Shown one piece after another: positions 6,405-47,395 of a stretch of DNA of 64,000 nt. The stretch lies in NCBI RefSeq assembly GCF_013694245.2, contig NZ_CP059322.2:2910001-2974000 (forward strand), read 5' to 3'. The DNA is from Micromonospora ferruginea. GTDB taxonomy: Bacteria; Actinomycetota; Actinomycetes; Mycobacteriales; Micromonosporaceae. Position 1 is the first letter of the stretch. Each line of letters begins with the position of its first letter. The translations under genes and the position numbers were made by a program. The notes under the pieces were generated by a model. The model ran no database searches and was not told the origin of the DNA. It saw only the letters and a program-made list of their open reading frames with translations.

Positions 6405-7972
6405 GGCGTACCCCCCGGGAACACGGCCTCGACGTACGGGGCGCGGCGCAGCAGGTCGTCGGCCGCGTCGGTGCTGATGTCGAAGAGCGGCCCGGCCACC
6501 ACGGTGAGCCCCAGCCCGAGCACCACCAGGGCGGCGGTGGAGGCGGTCATCAGCCGGGGCAGCGCCGCGCCGGACGGCGCCGCGTCGTCGTGCGGCTGCT
6601 CCGCGCCGTCGGTGCGCGCCGACCGGACGCCGTCGCCGGGTTCGGGCATGTCCGGGTGCGGGGCGCGCCAGAACGCGAGGTTCCACACCCGGGCGATGGC
6701 GTAGAGGGTGAGCAGGCTGGTGAGCAGCCCGCCGGCGACGAGCGCCCAGGCCAGCACGCCGCCGTCGGACACGCCCGCCTGCACGAGGCCGACCTTGCCG
6801 AGGAACCCGGAGAACGGCGGGATGCCGGCCAGGTTGAGGGCGGGCACGAAGAAGAGCACCGCCAGCACCGGCGACAGCCGGGCCAGCCCGCCGAGCCGGT
6901 CCAGCGCGGTGCTGCCGCCGCGGCGTTCGACCAGGCCGGCGGCGAGGAACAGGGTGGTCTGGATGGTGATGTGGTGCACCACGTAGAAGATCGCGGCGGA
7001 CAGGCCGAGCGCGGTGGTCAGGCCGACCCCGAACAGCATGTAGCCGATGTGGCTGACCAGGGTGAACGACAACAGCCGTTTGATGTCCGACTGGGCGACC
7101 GCGCCGAGGATGCCGACCACCATGGTCAGCGCCGCGATCACCAGCAGCAGGTCGGCGGTGCGGCCGCCGGGGAACAGCAGCGTCTCGGTGCGGATGATCG
7201 CGTAGACGCCGACCTTGGTCAGCAGGCCGGCGAAGACCGCGGTGACCGGCGCGGGCGCGGTCGGATAGCTGTCCGGGAGCCACGCCGACAGCGGGAACAC
7301 CGCCGCCTTGATGCCGAACGCCAGCAGCAGCATGCCCTGCAGGACCAGGCGCAGGTCGTCCGGCAGCGCGTCCAGCCGGTCGACGAGCTGGGCCAGGTTG
7401 AGCGTGCCGGTGGCCGCGTAGATCAGGCCGATCGCCACCAGGAAGATCAACGAAGACAGCAGGCTGACCACGACGTACGTGGTGCCCGCCCGGATCCGGT
7501 TCTCGGTGCTGCCCAGCGTCAACAGTACGTAGCTCGCCACCAGCAGGATCTCGAAGCCGACGTAGAGGTTGAACAGGTCGCCGGAGAGGAACGCGTTGCA
7601 CACGCCGGCGGTCAGCACCAGATAGGTCGGGTGGTAGACCGACAGCGGTGTCTCCTCGTTGCCGTCGGCCATGCCCTGCCCGATGGAGTAGACCAGCACG
7701 CAGAGGGTGACCGCGGCGGAGACCACCAGCATCAGCGCGGCGAGCTGGTCGGCGACGAGCACGATGCCCAGCGGCGCGACCCAGCCACCCACCTCGACCA
7801 CCAGCGGGCCGTCGAGCGTGGAGCGGACCAGCAGCAGCGCCGCGACCGCCACCGTGGCGGCGAGGACGGTGATGCTGACCCACCGCTGGGCGCGGGCCCG
7901 GCCCACGAGCAGCAGCGTCAGGGCGGCGCCGAACAGCGGCATCACCACCGGCAGCGGGACGAGCCAGGTCAT
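6401..7972 (-). CDS. mrpD: Mrp antiporter subunit D
   Basis: 523 residues with about 14 membrane helices. MrpD is homologous to the proton-pumping antiporter-like subunits of respiratory complex I (NuoL/M/N). It shows the proton_antipo_M core: FNLYVGFEILLVASYVLL, GIKAAVFPLSAWLPDSYPTA with the essential helix-7 Lys, and SDIKRLLSFTLVSHIGYML. The ATG at 7972 overlaps mrpC by ATGA. A polar insertion near the C-terminus (about residues 435-465) is a variable loop. It forms the ion-translocating half of the complex together with MrpA. Confidence 0.93.
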   Translation of the reverse strand: MTWLVPLPVVMPLFGAALTLLLVGRARAQRWVSITVLAATVAVAALLLVRSTLDGPLVVEVGGWVAPLGIVLVADQLAALMLVVSAAVTLCVLVYSIGQGMADGNEETPLSVYHPTYLVLTAGVCNAFLSGDLFNLYVGFEILLVASYVLLTLGSTENRIRAGTTYVVVSLLSSLIFLVAIGLIYAATGTLNLAQLVDRLDALPDDLRLVLQGMLLLAFGIKAAVFPLSAWLPDSYPTAPAPVTAVFAGLLTKVGVYAIIRTETLLFPGGRTADLLLVIAALTMVVGILGAVAQSDIKRLLSFTLVSHIGYMLFGVGLTTALGLSAAIFYVVHHITIQTTLFLAAGLVERRGGSTALDRLGGLARLSPVLAVLFFVPALNLAGIPPFSGFLGKVGLVQAGVSDGGVLAWALVAGGLLTSLLTLYAIARVWNLAFWRAPHPDMPEPGDGVRSARTDGAEQPHDDAAPSGAALPRLMTASTAALVVLGLGLTVVAGPLFDISTDAADDLLRRAPYVEAVFPGGTP

Positions 7973-41771: not shown

Positions 41772-42407
41772 TCACCGCGCGGGCGCGACCGGCTGCCGGA
41801 GGATGGTGCGTCGCCGCTCCGGCGCGACCCGCCGGAAGTCGCTGAGGTAGATCTCGTGGTGGGTGCCGGCCAGGCGCAGCCCGTGGTCGGGGACGTACCC
41901 GTGATGCAGTCGCGCGAGCACGTCGGCCTCGTCGTCGAAGGAGCCCACGTGCAACGTCTGCACGCACCGCCCCTCGGACAGGCCCGCCAACCGGACGTCG
42001 TCCAGGCGCGCCGGCCGGTTCCCGGCCCCCGCCTGCTCGACGGCGGCGGCGACCATAAACTCGCCGATCCAGTCCGGGACCATCAGCATCAGCGTCCAGC
42101 GCCAGCGGGCCTTCTGCCGCGCGGTGGTGAAGGCGGCCATGTCGTCGGCCCACCACAGCCCTTCCAGCGGCGGGACGACGTAGTCGCGCCCGAGATCGCG
42201 CCTGCTGGCGAACTTCAGTTTGTACGCCGTCGGGTAGAGCGCCTCGACCGCCCCGGTGAAGGCCGGCGAGGTGTTCGGGTCGCCCTGGCCGTCGACCATG
42301 AGATAGCGCATGTCCGGCACGTCGACCGTCCGGAACACGCCCCGTCGCGCCCGGTAGGCGTCGAGCGTCCTCCTGAAGTCGACCTTGCCCGGGGTGGGGT
42401 CGGTCAC
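41772..42407 (-). CDS. GyrI-like small-molecule binding protein
   Basis: 211 residues with the GyrI-like (SOUL/AraC-effector-binding) fold: FRTVDVPDMRYLMVDGQGDP at the N-terminus and HEIYLSDFRRVAPE at the end are the conserved strands of the family. Free-standing GyrI-like proteins bind drugs or hydrophobic cations, and some hydrolyse reactive small molecules. The GTG at 42407 lies 24 bases after the lanthipeptide synthetase stop on the same strand, so it should be on the lanA-lanL transcript. It may give self-protection or bind a pathway molecule, but it may be incidental. There is no DNA-binding domain. Confidence 0.8.
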   Translation of the reverse strand: MTDPTPGKVDFRRTLDAYRARRGVFRTVDVPDMRYLMVDGQGDPNTSPAFTGAVEALYPTAYKLKFASRRDLGRDYVVPPLEGLWWADDMAAFTTARQKARWRWTLMLMVPDWIGEFMVAAAVEQAGAGNRPARLDDVRLAGLSEGRCVQTLHVGSFDDEADVLARLHHGYVPDHGLRLAGTHHEIYLSDFRRVAPERRRTILRQPVAPAR

Positions 42408-42431
42408 CGCGGCAGTCTAGTGCCGCGACGC

Positions 42432-45020
42432 TCAGCCGCGGACCAGTGCGGGGCGCTCCCCCGCCCGGGCGCGCGGCAGGTGGCTGTACGGCACCACCTC
42501 CGGGGTGTCGGGACGGTTGAGCCGGCGGAAGAAGCAGAGGACCCCCGCGTTGCCGGTGGCCCAGGACCACGGCGCGTCCTGCCGCTCGGCGTCGACGAAC
42601 CGTGGCGCGTCGTCCGGCCCGTGGCTGCGGGTGAGCAGGTGCGCGACGACCGCGTGGGCGGCCCGCCGGTGCCGGTCGTCGCCGGTGTGCCGGGCGCAGT
42701 CGACGAGGAACCCGCCGACACCGGTCACGCCGCAGCACTGGCCGAGGTTGGCCAGGCGGGGAATCCAGTCGGCGCACGCGTCGGCCGCCGCCACGGCGGT
42801 CTCGGTGAACCGGCTGTCGTCCAGCACCTCGGCGGCGTGCAGCAGGGTTCGGCCGATCCCGGCGAGGCCCTGGCACCAGGACACCGACAGCGGGATCGCG
42901 CGCGGGTCACGGGCGCGGGCGACCAGCACCTCGGTGCGCTCGCGCAGCTCCCGGGACCGTTCCCCGGCGGCGGCGAGCACGCCCGGGTCGCCGGTGCGCG
43001 CGGCGTACGCGAGGAACAGGTCGACGAGCCCGGCCCGGCCGTGGGAGTAGCTGGCCGTCGGGTCGGTGTCGATCTCCTCGGGCAGGCCGGCGTCGAGCGT
43101 CACCGACAGCGTCAGCTCGCTCTTGCCGAGGAGCCGCTCGACGCAGACCCGGGCGGCGTCGAGGTGGGCCGCGTCGTCCAGCACGTCGGCCAGGTGGAGG
43201 TGGCCGAGGCCGGCGCCGGCCGTGCCGGTCATGATGTCGTCGTGCTCGTCGTCGGTGTCGTACGGCGTCGCCGGGATCGCGGGCAACGTCACATCGAAGC
43301 CGGCCTGCCGCAGCCGGGCGAGGAAGAGGTGGCTGCCGGTGGAGCCGAGGAACAGGCCGGGCGGCACGTCGGTACGGGCGTTGGCCCGGACCGTGTGCGT
43401 GGCCAGCCGGTCGAGCAGCTCCGGCACGCCCGGCGTGTCCAGGTGGTGCAGCAGTTCCAGGCCCACCCCGGCGCTGCCGGTGTAGACGCTGCCGTCCACG
43501 TTGGCGAACGCGGACGCCGGCTGCCGCAACTGCCGCATGTCGACGTCGCGCATCAGCTCGGCGAGCACCTGCCGCTCGACCGCGACCGGGTCGGCGTGCG
43601 GCGCCGCCCGGCGGCGGGCCGGCGCGGCACCCGTCGCCCACCGCTCGCCGGCCAGCGCCCGCAGCGCCTCGTCGGCCCGCGCCGGGGCACCCCGCAGCAG
43701 GTCGTCGACCAGGTCGACGAAGGCCGCGTGCGCGGGGCCGAGGATGCGGTCCAGCGACTGCAGCGTCCGCAGCGCCGACAGGCCGCGCTCGGTCTCGCCG
43801 ACGACCGGCGCGAGGCCGGTGGCGGCGAACGCGAGGGTCATGCCGATGCCGTGGTGGTCGTCGGAGACGGTCGCCGGCCCGTCACGCATCTGGTCCCAGG
43901 AGGCGTAGCCGTGGGTGCCGCCGGGCACGTGCAGCCCGTCGAGGGCGGAGATGCCGAAGTCCACCAGGTGGGCCCGGTCCGGGCCGAGCACCACGTTGCG
44001 CGGGGTGACGTCGCGCATCACCACGCCGCGCTCGTGCAGCGCCAGCACGGTACGCGCCAGCTCGCCCGCCGTCCGGGTGAACTCGGCGGAGACCGGCGTG
44101 CCGGCGCGCAGCATGGCGCCGCGGTTGCCGACCCGGTAGGCGAGATCCTGCTCGCCGACGTCGGTGGTGACCAGGAACTCGTCCTCGCCGTGGGCGAAGT
44201 GGTCGACGAACCCGGGCACCCCCGGCACGCCGTCGCAGGCGGTGAGCACCCGGCGTTCGTTGCGCAGGCGGGAGCGGGCGTCGAGTCCGTTGCCGGAGTC
44301 CCCCACGTACGCCCGGGCCTGCTTGACGACGACCACCCGGTCGGTGGCGGTGTCCCGGGCGCGGAAGACGCTGCCCTGCGCGGTGCGCTGGAGGCCGGCC
44401 TCCGGCCGGTAGCGGTCGCCGAGCAGCGCCGGCGTCTCGTCGTCGTCCGGCCGGAACGGGTCGCTCACCCAGTCCGGCTGGCGGTAGTCCAGGTCGGCGA
44501 CGGCGTCGAACGACTCCCCGTCCGGTCCCGGGATCCGCATCGCCAGGCGTCCCCGCTCGCCCCGGTACCAGCGGGCCACGAACGGGCCGTAGCGGTAGTA
44601 GACGGGGGCGTCGTCGGCGACCCGGCGGTCGCTGAGCACCCGCGGGCCCGGGTGCCCGCGCAGCAGCGCGGCCAGCGCGAGGCCGAGCTCGCGGACCCGG
44701 TCCGGCTCCGGGTAGATCGTCATCGCCTTGCCGACGGTGGCCGGCGAGTCGATGCCGTAGTTCAACCCGGTGAGCACGTCGCCGCCGGCGGCGAGCTTGA
44801 AGCTGCACCCGGCGTCGAGCAGGAACGGCACCGCCCGGGCGGCGAGCGCCGGGAAGTCCTCGGCCCGCGAGGAGACGTGCAGCTTCCAGCCGTGGTCCGG
44901 AAGCCGCACGCCCTCGCGGTCGACATAGCACCACTGCGGCCCGAGGCGCACCGTGAACCGGCCGCCGTACCGTTCGTCGACGAGCCGTTGGATGAACGGC
45001 GCGGGTTCCCAGTCGGACAC
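42432..45020 (-). CDS. Lanthipeptide synthetase (lyase-kinase-cyclase, class III/IV type)
   Basis: 862 residues. The N-terminal lyase domain (1-200) has GWKLHVSSR, with Lys and His that match the phosphothreonine lyase site, and VYYRYGPF. The kinase domain (about 205-470) has VVVKQARAY, HERGVVMRDVTPRNVVL (catalytic Asp-Asn) and VDFGIS. The LanC-like cyclase domain (about 500-862) has SYSHGRAG (conserved His), SWCQG with Cys716 and GQCCG with Cys762 and Cys763. The 46-residue gap equals that in NisC and ProcM, so a zinc site of three Cys is expected. Class III enzymes lack these ligands, and class IV has Cys-Cys-His. The GTG at 45020 follows GAGGAGG, 42 bases after the precursor gene. Confidence 0.92.
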   Translation of the reverse strand: MSDWEPAPFIQRLVDERYGGRFTVRLGPQWCYVDREGVRLPDHGWKLHVSSRAEDFPALAARAVPFLLDAGCSFKLAAGGDVLTGLNYGIDSPATVGKAMTIYPEPDRVRELGLALAALLRGHPGPRVLSDRRVADDAPVYYRYGPFVARWYRGERGRLAMRIPGPDGESFDAVADLDYRQPDWVSDPFRPDDDETPALLGDRYRPEAGLQRTAQGSVFRARDTATDRVVVVKQARAYVGDSGNGLDARSRLRNERRVLTACDGVPGVPGFVDHFAHGEDEFLVTTDVGEQDLAYRVGNRGAMLRAGTPVSAEFTRTAGELARTVLALHERGVVMRDVTPRNVVLGPDRAHLVDFGISALDGLHVPGGTHGYASWDQMRDGPATVSDDHHGIGMTLAFAATGLAPVVGETERGLSALRTLQSLDRILGPAHAAFVDLVDDLLRGAPARADEALRALAGERWATGAAPARRRAAPHADPVAVERQVLAELMRDVDMRQLRQPASAFANVDGSVYTGSAGVGLELLHHLDTPGVPELLDRLATHTVRANARTDVPPGLFLGSTGSHLFLARLRQAGFDVTLPAIPATPYDTDDEHDDIMTGTAGAGLGHLHLADVLDDAAHLDAARVCVERLLGKSELTLSVTLDAGLPEEIDTDPTASYSHGRAGLVDLFLAYAARTGDPGVLAAAGERSRELRERTEVLVARARDPRAIPLSVSWCQGLAGIGRTLLHAAEVLDDSRFTETAVAAADACADWIPRLANLGQCCGVTGVGGFLVDCARHTGDDRHRRAAHAVVAHLLTRSHGPDDAPRFVDAERQDAPWSWATGNAGVLCFFRRLNRPDTPEVVPYSHLPRARAGERPALVRG

Positions 45021-45062
45021 GGAGATCTACCTCCTCGGACAGCAGGGGCGGTCAGGCCGGGA

Positions 45063-45254
45063 TCAGACGGTGCGCCCGGTGGCGACGCACCGGTCGCTGT
45101 AGCGGTCGGTGCACGGCCCGCAGGTGTACGGGCAGCGGTTCGCGGAGTGCAGCGACTGCTGCACCTCCTCGAAGTGGATCCGCGGCTCCACGGTGGCCGG
45201 TCCGCCGCTGCGCGGCGCGAGCTCCAGCAGGGTCGCCTGCAGTCTCTGGGTCAT
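45063..45254 (-). CDS. Lanthipeptide precursor peptide
   Basis: 63 residues. The ATG at 45254 has GGAGG 4 bases upstream; a longer frame to 45281 is unlikely. The N-terminal leader (MTQRLQATLLELAPRSGG) has the L-Q-x-x-L-L-E-L amphipathic helix seen in class III/IV leaders. The C-terminal part, NRCPYTCGPCTDRYSDRC and then VATGRTV, has four Cys (41, 45, 48, 56) and Ser/Thr at 34, 37, 44, 49, 53, 59 and 62. Three Thr and one Ser lie within or after the Cys cluster, so up to four rings are possible. It is directly upstream of the synthetase gene. The core does not match SapB/AmfS, labyrinthopeptin or venezuelin precursors that I know. Confidence 0.85.
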   Translation of the reverse strand: MTQRLQATLLELAPRSGGPATVEPRIHFEEVQQSLHSANRCPYTCGPCTDRYSDRCVATGRTV

Positions 45255-45333
45255 GTCGCCTCCATCGAGGTAGCGGGGCACGACGGCCTGGTTGCCGACC
45301 GGCCCCTGGGGTGTTCGGGACGCTAGTGCAGCC

Positions 45334-45351
45334 CGCTAAGCAATCACTAAG
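45334..45351. promoter_or_regulatory. 11-bp spaced direct repeat between divergent lan genes
   Basis: CGCTAAG and CACTAAG repeat with an 11-base period (CTAAG at 45336-45340 and 45347-45351), one helical turn apart. They lie in the AT-richer part of the 209-base region between the precursor gene and the divergent exporter gene. Such repeats suit OmpR-type or similar activators. An AGGAGGTGATC at 45356-45366 follows; no convincing ORF uses it. Confidence 0.35.
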
Positions 45352-45463
45352 AATGAGGAGGTGATCACGAAGGGTGTCGAGCCATCGACGCCGGCGATGC
45401 TCTACTCTCGACCTCCAGCCCGGGCCCCGGCGCGGCCGGGCGGCAGCGGGAGGAGGCGCACCG

Positions 45464-47395
45464 ATGACCGAGGCCGCCGTCGCGAACGACCGGCAGGCCG
45501 GCCCGCGTACCCCCGGGGGCGGCCCGCCCGCCGCGGAGTCGGTGCTGCCGGAGCTGCGCGAGATGTGGTGGGAGACGGGCCTGCGGGCCCGGGCCGAGGC
45601 CGGCCTGCTGACCGTGCTGGCCGAGCTGCCCCGCCTGGTCGGCGCCGCGATGCGGATCAGTTGGCGGGCGGACCGGGCCCGCACCGCGACGGTGGCCGCC
45701 GCGACGGTCGGCGGCGGCCTGCTCGCCGCATTCGGGCTGCTGGCCACGCAGCGGGTGCTGGTCGAGCTGTTCGCCGGCGGCCCGACCGCCGACAAGGTGG
45801 TCGCCGCGCTGCCCGCGCTCGCGGCGCTGGCCGGCGCGACCGCGCTGCGCGCCGGCCTGGGCATCGCCACCGGGTACGCGCAGAACGGGCTGACGCCGCG
45901 GGTCAGCCGGGACGTGGAGCGCCGCCTGTTCGAGACCAGCACGGCCGTGCGGCTGGAGGCGTTCGACGCGGACGCGTTCGCCGACGACATGGAACGGGCG
46001 TCGCGGGGCCCGGAGTCGGCGACCGGGCTGGTGCAGGCCGCCACGAACCTGCTGGCCGGCCTGGCCGGGCTGGCCGCCGTCGCGGTCGCGGTGGTGGTCA
46101 TCCACCCGCTGCTGCTGCCGGCGCTGCTGATCGCCACGCTGCCCCGGGCCTGGGCCGCGCTGCGGGCGGGGCACCTGCAGTACCGGACGTACGCGGCCGG
46201 CTCGGTGCGCCGGCGCCGCATCTGGATCCTGCACCGCCTGATGGCCGAGCGGGTCTCGGCGCCGGAGCTGCGTTCCTACGGGCTGCGCGGGTTCCTGCTC
46301 GACCAGTACGACCGCGTGATGGGTGCGGAGACCGACGTCCAGCTCACCCTCGCCCGCCGGGTCACCACGACCACCACCGTGGGCTCGCTGACCGGCGGCG
46401 TGGCGACCGGCGCGGTCTACCTGCTGCTCGGGTTGCTGCTGGTGGGCGGGCACATCCCGCTCGCCGCGGCCGCGACCTGCGTGCTCGCCCTGCAGGCCGC
46501 GCAGCGCTCGCTGACCACCGCCACCACGCAGGCCGACAAGGTCTACACCGAGGGGCTGCACTTCGCCGACTACACCGGGTTCCTGACCCGCGCGGCGGCG
46601 TACCTGCCGGACGCCGCGGGCGGGGACCGGCCCGGACCGCTGCGCGAGCTGAGCGTCCGTCACGCCGGCCTGCGCTATCCCGGCCGCGACGACACCGCCG
46701 TGCGCGACGTGACGCTGACCGTCCGGGCCGGCGAGACGGTGGCCCTGGTCGGGGAGAACGGCTCCGGCAAGACCAGCCTGGCCGCGCTGATCGCCACGCT
46801 GCGCACGCCCACCGCCGGCGCCGTCTGCTGGAACGGGCGACCGCTGGCCGAGTGGGACACCGACGACCTACGGTCGCGGATCGCCGTGGTCACCCAGGAC
46901 CACCACCGCTGGCCGTTCACCGCGGCCACCAACATCGCGCTGGGCGACGTCGGCGGCGAGCCCCGCCGGGAGCGCATCGAGGCCGCGGCGGACCGGGCCG
47001 CCGCCCACCAGATGATCACGGAGCTGCCGTACGGGTACGAGACGCTGCTCGACCGCACCTTCGCCCACGGCCAGGACCTCTCCGGCGGGCAGTGGCAGCG
47101 GATCACCGCGGCCCGGGGTTTCCTGCGCGACGCCGACCTGCTGATCATGGACGAGCCGTCCTCCGCTCTCGACCCGCGCGCCGAGGAGGCCCTGTTCCAG
47201 GCGATCCGGGAGCGGCAGGGGCGCGCCACCACCATCCTCATCACCCACCGTCTGGCCAACGTCCGGCACGCCGACCGGATCTTCGTGCTGCACGACGGCG
47301 CGCTCGTGGAGGAGGGCAGCCACGACGACCTGGTCGCCGCCGACGGCCGGTACGCCGAGCTGTTCGCGTTGCAGGCGGCGGGCTACCGCGCGTGA
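45464..47395 (+). CDS. ABC exporter (fused membrane and ATPase domains)
   Basis: 643 residues. After a 70-residue cytoplasmic N-terminus the membrane domain has about six helices (residues 75-370). The ATPase domain has Walker A GENGSGKTS (430-438), signature LSGGQWQR (539-546), Walker B LLIMDEPSSALD (Asp563-Glu564) and ITHR. It is a homodimeric half-transporter. There is no C39 peptidase domain, so it cannot itself cut the leader. It is divergent from the lanthipeptide genes, so the natural role is export of the modified peptide. The ATG at 45464 follows AGGAGG at 45451-45456. Confidence 0.88.
   Translation: MTEAAVANDRQAGPRTPGGGPPAAESVLPELREMWWETGLRARAEAGLLTVLAELPRLVGAAMRISWRADRARTATVAAATVGGGLLAAFGLLATQRVLVELFAGGPTADKVVAALPALAALAGATALRAGLGIATGYAQNGLTPRVSRDVERRLFETSTAVRLEAFDADAFADDMERASRGPESATGLVQAATNLLAGLAGLAAVAVAVVVIHPLLLPALLIATLPRAWAALRAGHLQYRTYAAGSVRRRRIWILHRLMAERVSAPELRSYGLRGFLLDQYDRVMGAETDVQLTLARRVTTTTTVGSLTGGVATGAVYLLLGLLLVGGHIPLAAAATCVLALQAAQRSLTTATTQADKVYTEGLHFADYTGFLTRAAAYLPDAAGGDRPGPLRELSVRHAGLRYPGRDDTAVRDVTLTVRAGETVALVGENGSGKTSLAALIATLRTPTAGAVCWNGRPLAEWDTDDLRSRIAVVTQDHHRWPFTAATNIALGDVGGEPRRERIEAAADRAAAHQMITELPYGYETLLDRTFAHGQDLSGGQWQRITAARGFLRDADLLIMDEPSSALDPRAEEALFQAIRERQGRATTILITHRLANVRHADRIFVLHDGALVEEGSHDDLVAADGRYAELFALQAAGYRA

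Follow-up and report, generated by a model that had tools for sequence, protein, structure and literature searches.

The Micromonospora ferruginea window analysed here, 64,000 nucleotides drawn from a genome of 6.70 Mb on a single contig, contains what we read, with a probability of roughly 93%, as a class IV lanthipeptide cluster belonging to the same lineage as the curvocidin synthetase, working in the manner proposed below. The precursor gene, lanA (63 codons, 63 amino acids), lies on the reverse strand at 45066–45254, with its ATG at 45254, its stop codon at 45063–45065, and a GGAGG sequence four bases 5' of the ATG. The leader carries an LLELAPR motif, and the core, CPYTCGPCTDRYSDRCVATGRTV, begins at Cys41. 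Separated from the lanA stop by 42 bases, lanL (42432–45020, reverse strand) encodes a lanthionine synthetase of 862 amino acids, assigned to class IV by its domain matches and a class IV model, and is followed after a further 24 bases on the same strand by a gene for a GyrI-like small-molecule-binding protein of 211 amino acids (41772–42407; GyrI-like match, 5.6e-13). An ABC exporter gene (45464–47395, forward strand; 643 amino acids; ABC_tran match, 1.9e-29) is transcribed divergently, and an alternative upstream start at 45374 is possible. All four genes stand where the first-pass annotation had placed them, and the precursor core has the C-x3-C-x2-C-x7-C spacing that it had read. No promoter or terminator was found between 45000 and 45600 by a consensus scan, which says little for such a genome.

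The assignment to class IV rests on the synthetase. Matches to RamC_N (3.7e-44), Pkinase (9.8e-12), and LANC_like (1.6e-23) place a lyase at approximately residues 16–192, a kinase at 215–425, and a LanC-like cyclase at 509–841 of a single LanL protein. The lyase, kinase, and zinc-site motifs are all present. The product passes the NCBI (NCBIfam) class IV LanL equivalog at 666.8 bits, a small margin just above the cut-off of 650; in a class-wide search the same cut-off was passed at 24 places in 21 of 394 genomes, 17 of these places scoring above 900 bits. A class III lanthipeptide locus, of the labionin type or metal-independent, would have the identical lyase-kinase-cyclase order, and the class III model does match LanL, but at 339 bits against a cut-off of 575, whereas the class IV cut-off is exceeded. 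The cyclase, moreover, retains the zinc-ligand positions (SWCQG at 714 and QCCG at 761, a predicted Cys-Cys-Cys zinc site), which class III cyclases lack according to the parts of the 2020 class IV survey drawn on here (PMC7268733). Six synthetase rows (L056–L061), taken as class III-like on the basis of scores below the class IV cut-off and unmatched zinc motifs, also fall outside the clade of the window's enzyme. On these model scores and zinc motifs class III was rejected as an extremely improbable reading. The proposal that this is a lanthipeptide locus is thus borne out by the synthetase domains, the class IV model score, and the conserved precursor described below.

By sequence, the best-matching solved structure is PDB 8car (E=1.2e-118, LanL residues 27–841), which is labelled in the PDB only as a serine/threonine protein kinase and which we take to be the curvocidin synthetase CuvL from Thermomonospora curvata. 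Its cyclase motifs are SFCQG and QCCG, the latter common to 8car and the window's LanL. In a tree of 45 synthetase rows, 43 of them different, with an arbitrary root and two long-branched outside rows (L054 and L055), the window's enzyme belongs with the 8car-like enzyme to a clade of 21 rows (19 distinct) supported at 100/100. This clade includes a gene from G913 that is identical to 8car over the 163 residues searched. Nested within it, a set of seven rows around the window's synthetase, G534 among them, is likewise supported at 100/100. A CCG cyclase site is present in 18 of the 19 distinct clade members, the exception being G391; outside the clade, a CHG site is found in 17 of 24 rows, including the venezuelin-type row, and the remaining seven (L052 and L056–L061) matched no zinc motif. 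In the LanL-like stretch at L052 (G482) no zinc motif was matched; WCHG and LCCG occur on its strand but in a different reading frame, and a 75-amino-acid open reading frame containing Cys and Thr lies upstream. The LCCG match, being out of frame with the part of the synthetase that entered the tree, was dropped as an exception to the CCG clade.

Further LanC-like loci were noticed in passing. The host genome holds two more such places, G000:C1:1412278-1413420 (L001) and G000:C1:2588261-2590633 (L003); one lies in a 488-codon frame, and the other in a 934-codon frame that scores 377.9 bits with the class IV model, below the cut-off. A separate class IV precursor type is strongly conserved and, in the rows read, ends CVNTCKRTVC-CCPSIV. 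It stands beside CCG-clade LanL genes in L027, L028, L049, and L094, and 18 of the 297 family f31 genomes gave strong matches to it.

The small open reading frame had been proposed as the precursor, its conservation beside homologous synthetases being offered as the means of judging the assignment. When this comparison was run, a precursor-like reading frame was found to adjoin 18 of the 19 distinct synthetases of the window's clade, so the claim survived: relatives of the precursor adjoin related synthetases in other genomes. In the remaining case, G391 (L029; 37% synthetase, in the clade), no convincing precursor was found and no zinc motif was matched. The window's precursor is 89% identical to that of another genome of the same genus (G057), 48–49% to those of G301, G418, and G448, 46% to that of G094, and 41% to that of Streptomyces hoynatensis; in each of these genomes it lies upstream of lanL. 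A PR motif occurs near the start of nearly all clade leaders, often as PRDAG and in G790 as IRDAG. Other cores vary in their cysteines, the G534 relative having only three with another spacing, and the G433 and G790 precursors just two. The G433 locus (L026) has two neighbouring precursors, at 7242–7394 and 7509–7679, each with an LLELAPR leader and two core Cys. Weak precursor matches in G015 (E 3.8e-4) and G116 (0.0085) were dropped on account of internal stops and of the lack of a synthetase match at their loci (L030 and L031). The plasmid collection yielded no precursor match.

Conservation extends to the residues from which rings would be made. Seven cores (the window, G057, G301, G418, G448, S. 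hoynatensis, and G094) share four Cys and a register of five positions that hold Ser or Thr; four of these positions show both residues and no others, and the fifth is Thr only. A shuffling of the non-Cys residues covered the cores of G301, G418, S. hoynatensis, and G094, leaving out the window, the near-duplicates G057 and G448, and G534. In the four cores all 20 of 20 places were occupied, compared with a shuffled average of 6.22, and 0 of 100000 shuffles reached 20; the five places were picked after the rows had been seen, and shared descent contributes too, so the register shows conservation of ring-forming residues, not of rings. In all seven rows a Ser or Thr stands three residues before the fourth Cys, and others stand three residues after Cys41 and after Cys56 (window numbering). 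From these positions a ring between Dha53 and Cys56 may be guessed, as may rings running from Cys to a downstream residue, Cys41-Dhb44 and Cys56-Dhb59; Cys56 cannot join both partners, so Dha53-Cys56 and Cys56-Dhb59 are alternatives. The Cys-to-downstream direction is allowed in class IV, given that three of the four rings of venezuelin run this way according to the parts of PMC2843593 used here.

Of the two known lanthipeptides with which the window's core was compared, it resembles curvocidin. The precursor beside the 8car-like gene, like that of the window, has a leader with an xPR motif, and it ends SCTVCHWGRTVLCDDFSTQA, with the spacing C-x2-C-x7-C. The last three cysteines of the window's core are spaced in the same way, preceded at x3 by an additional N-terminal Cys. 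Outside the genus, the nearest relatives have x6 in place of x7 as their final spacing, and chance may therefore account for part of the exact agreement with the 8car-linked core. The two systems also differ: the synthetases are 35% identical in their best-matching piece, the core sequences are dissimilar, with four Cys in the window against three in the 8car-linked core, and the 8car-like place has two precursor copies where the window gave one match. The curvocidin core is tricyclic. Venezuelin has the three-domain class IV chemistry and four core Cys, as does the window locus. The VenA residues given in the accessible part of its description (Cys32, 34, 45, and 50; Thr31, 39, and 43; Ser49; PMC2843593) fit the numbering of the venezuelin-type precursor at L032, whose spacing is C-x-C-x10-C-x4-C, in contrast to the window's C-x3-C-x2-C-x7-C, and the venezuelin-type row (L032/L095), with CHG at its cyclase site, falls outside the clade of the window's enzyme. 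The claim that the core departs from the venezuelin pattern therefore agrees with the Cys spacing, and judged by its sequence the core is unlike venezuelin and curvocidin-like with one extra N-terminal Cys. SflA, streptocollin (described in PMC10676316), and the other characterised class IV peptides covered in the portions of PMC9576775 and PMC10676316 drawn on here can be likened to the window's peptide by class alone.

These features are consistent with a model in which LanL would bind the leader of the 63-residue precursor, its kinase domain would phosphorylate Ser and Thr residues of the core, and its lyase domain would eliminate the phosphate to give dehydroamino acids, the last two steps by analogy with VenL as treated in the available part of PMC2843593. 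The LanC-like domain, with three cysteines at its zinc site, would then add the thiols of the four cysteines, closing as many as four thioether rings. We infer from the genes that the peptide is produced, and the number of its dehydrations, its ring pattern, and its activity are likewise predictions from sequence. We consider the chances evenly balanced that the product has a four-ring topology new to class IV, in which a curvocidin-like three-ring part would be joined by an N-terminal Cys41-Thr44 ring, made by a cyclase with a three-Cys zinc site. In class II enzymes, cyclases of this three-Cys type have been linked to loose substrate choice, according to the parts of PMC12328550 consulted.

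The leader would be removed by a protease encoded elsewhere, and the divergent ABC protein would export the product. No peptidase domain was matched in the exporter, and no peptidase family among two sets of proteins (seven and six), some of which gave no family match of any kind; in the ven cluster, as far as it is described in the material drawn from PMC2843593, a protease gene is likewise lacking. The exporter was matched beside the synthetase at four of ten other places, in G057 (80%), G301 (73%), and G414 and G308 (both approximately 48%). In G448 and S. hoynatensis there were weak matches (approximately 29%) confined to the ATPase part, and the exporter was unmatched at the remaining places among the ten searched.

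The GyrI-like gene had been counted as part of the locus, a view that the comparison did not sustain. It was unmatched in all 13 loci searched, 11 of which hold a related synthetase and correspond to ten distinct places, since L019 and L021 coincide. We therefore rejected it as a conserved part of the system, to which it is probably a bystander. It could, compatibly with the class IV reading, be functional nonetheless, for example in immunity or sensing, by binding the peptide, and its closeness to lanL, in the same orientation and with a gap of 24 bases on the downstream side, favours such a role; the lack of a match to it at the ten other synthetase places, whereas the exporter was matched at four of them, makes this unlikely.

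Two of the nearest relatives carry damaged synthetases. The lanL gene of G057 (L021:3716-5884) lacks approximately 142 residues, in frame, across the lyase and kinase, and that of G448 (L024:8123-9861) lacks query residues 121–391, its two remaining parts lying in different frames. In both genomes parts of the lyase and kinase have been lost while the cyclase and the precursor remain. This damage suggests that the pathway may be dispensable, and it raises the question of whether the window's locus is itself decaying and the peptide no longer made. The locus is also rare: of the order's 397 genomes, 10 gave a synthetase match at E<=1e-100, counting the one that holds the window. Against decay, the window's lanL has all the motifs looked for in a frame open over 862 amino acids, and the precursor has accumulated fewer replacement than silent changes relative to G057 (dN 0.06, dS 0.21; of 17 differing bases in 189, 10 fall at third positions). 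We accordingly regard decay as highly improbable.

The product had been described as likely a new multi-ring peptide. The part of this claim that stands is the difference of the core from venezuelin; novelty is tempered by an enzyme that is class IV by the NCBI model and groups with the 8car-like synthetase, and by the spacing of the last three Cys, shared with the 8car-linked core. A new multi-ring peptide is plausible from the sequence, and the locus, apparently uncharacterised so far, belongs to a class of peptides already known, not to a new one. A search of the literature on class IV lanthipeptides, curvocidin, and Micromonospora gave no description of this locus among the matches listed. 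The 2020 survey reports, in the sections drawn on, 401 class IV precursors (PMC7268733), and the window's precursor may already be catalogued computationally in its supplement. Characterised class IV lanthipeptides are few: the corresponding part of PMC9576775 counted two earlier and two added ones in 2022. To these the locus would offer a compact pair of precursor and synthetase from a lineage with a three-Cys zinc-site cyclase. The CCG and CHG lineages of LanL suggest two branches of class IV, which would allow a direct comparison of how each forms its rings.
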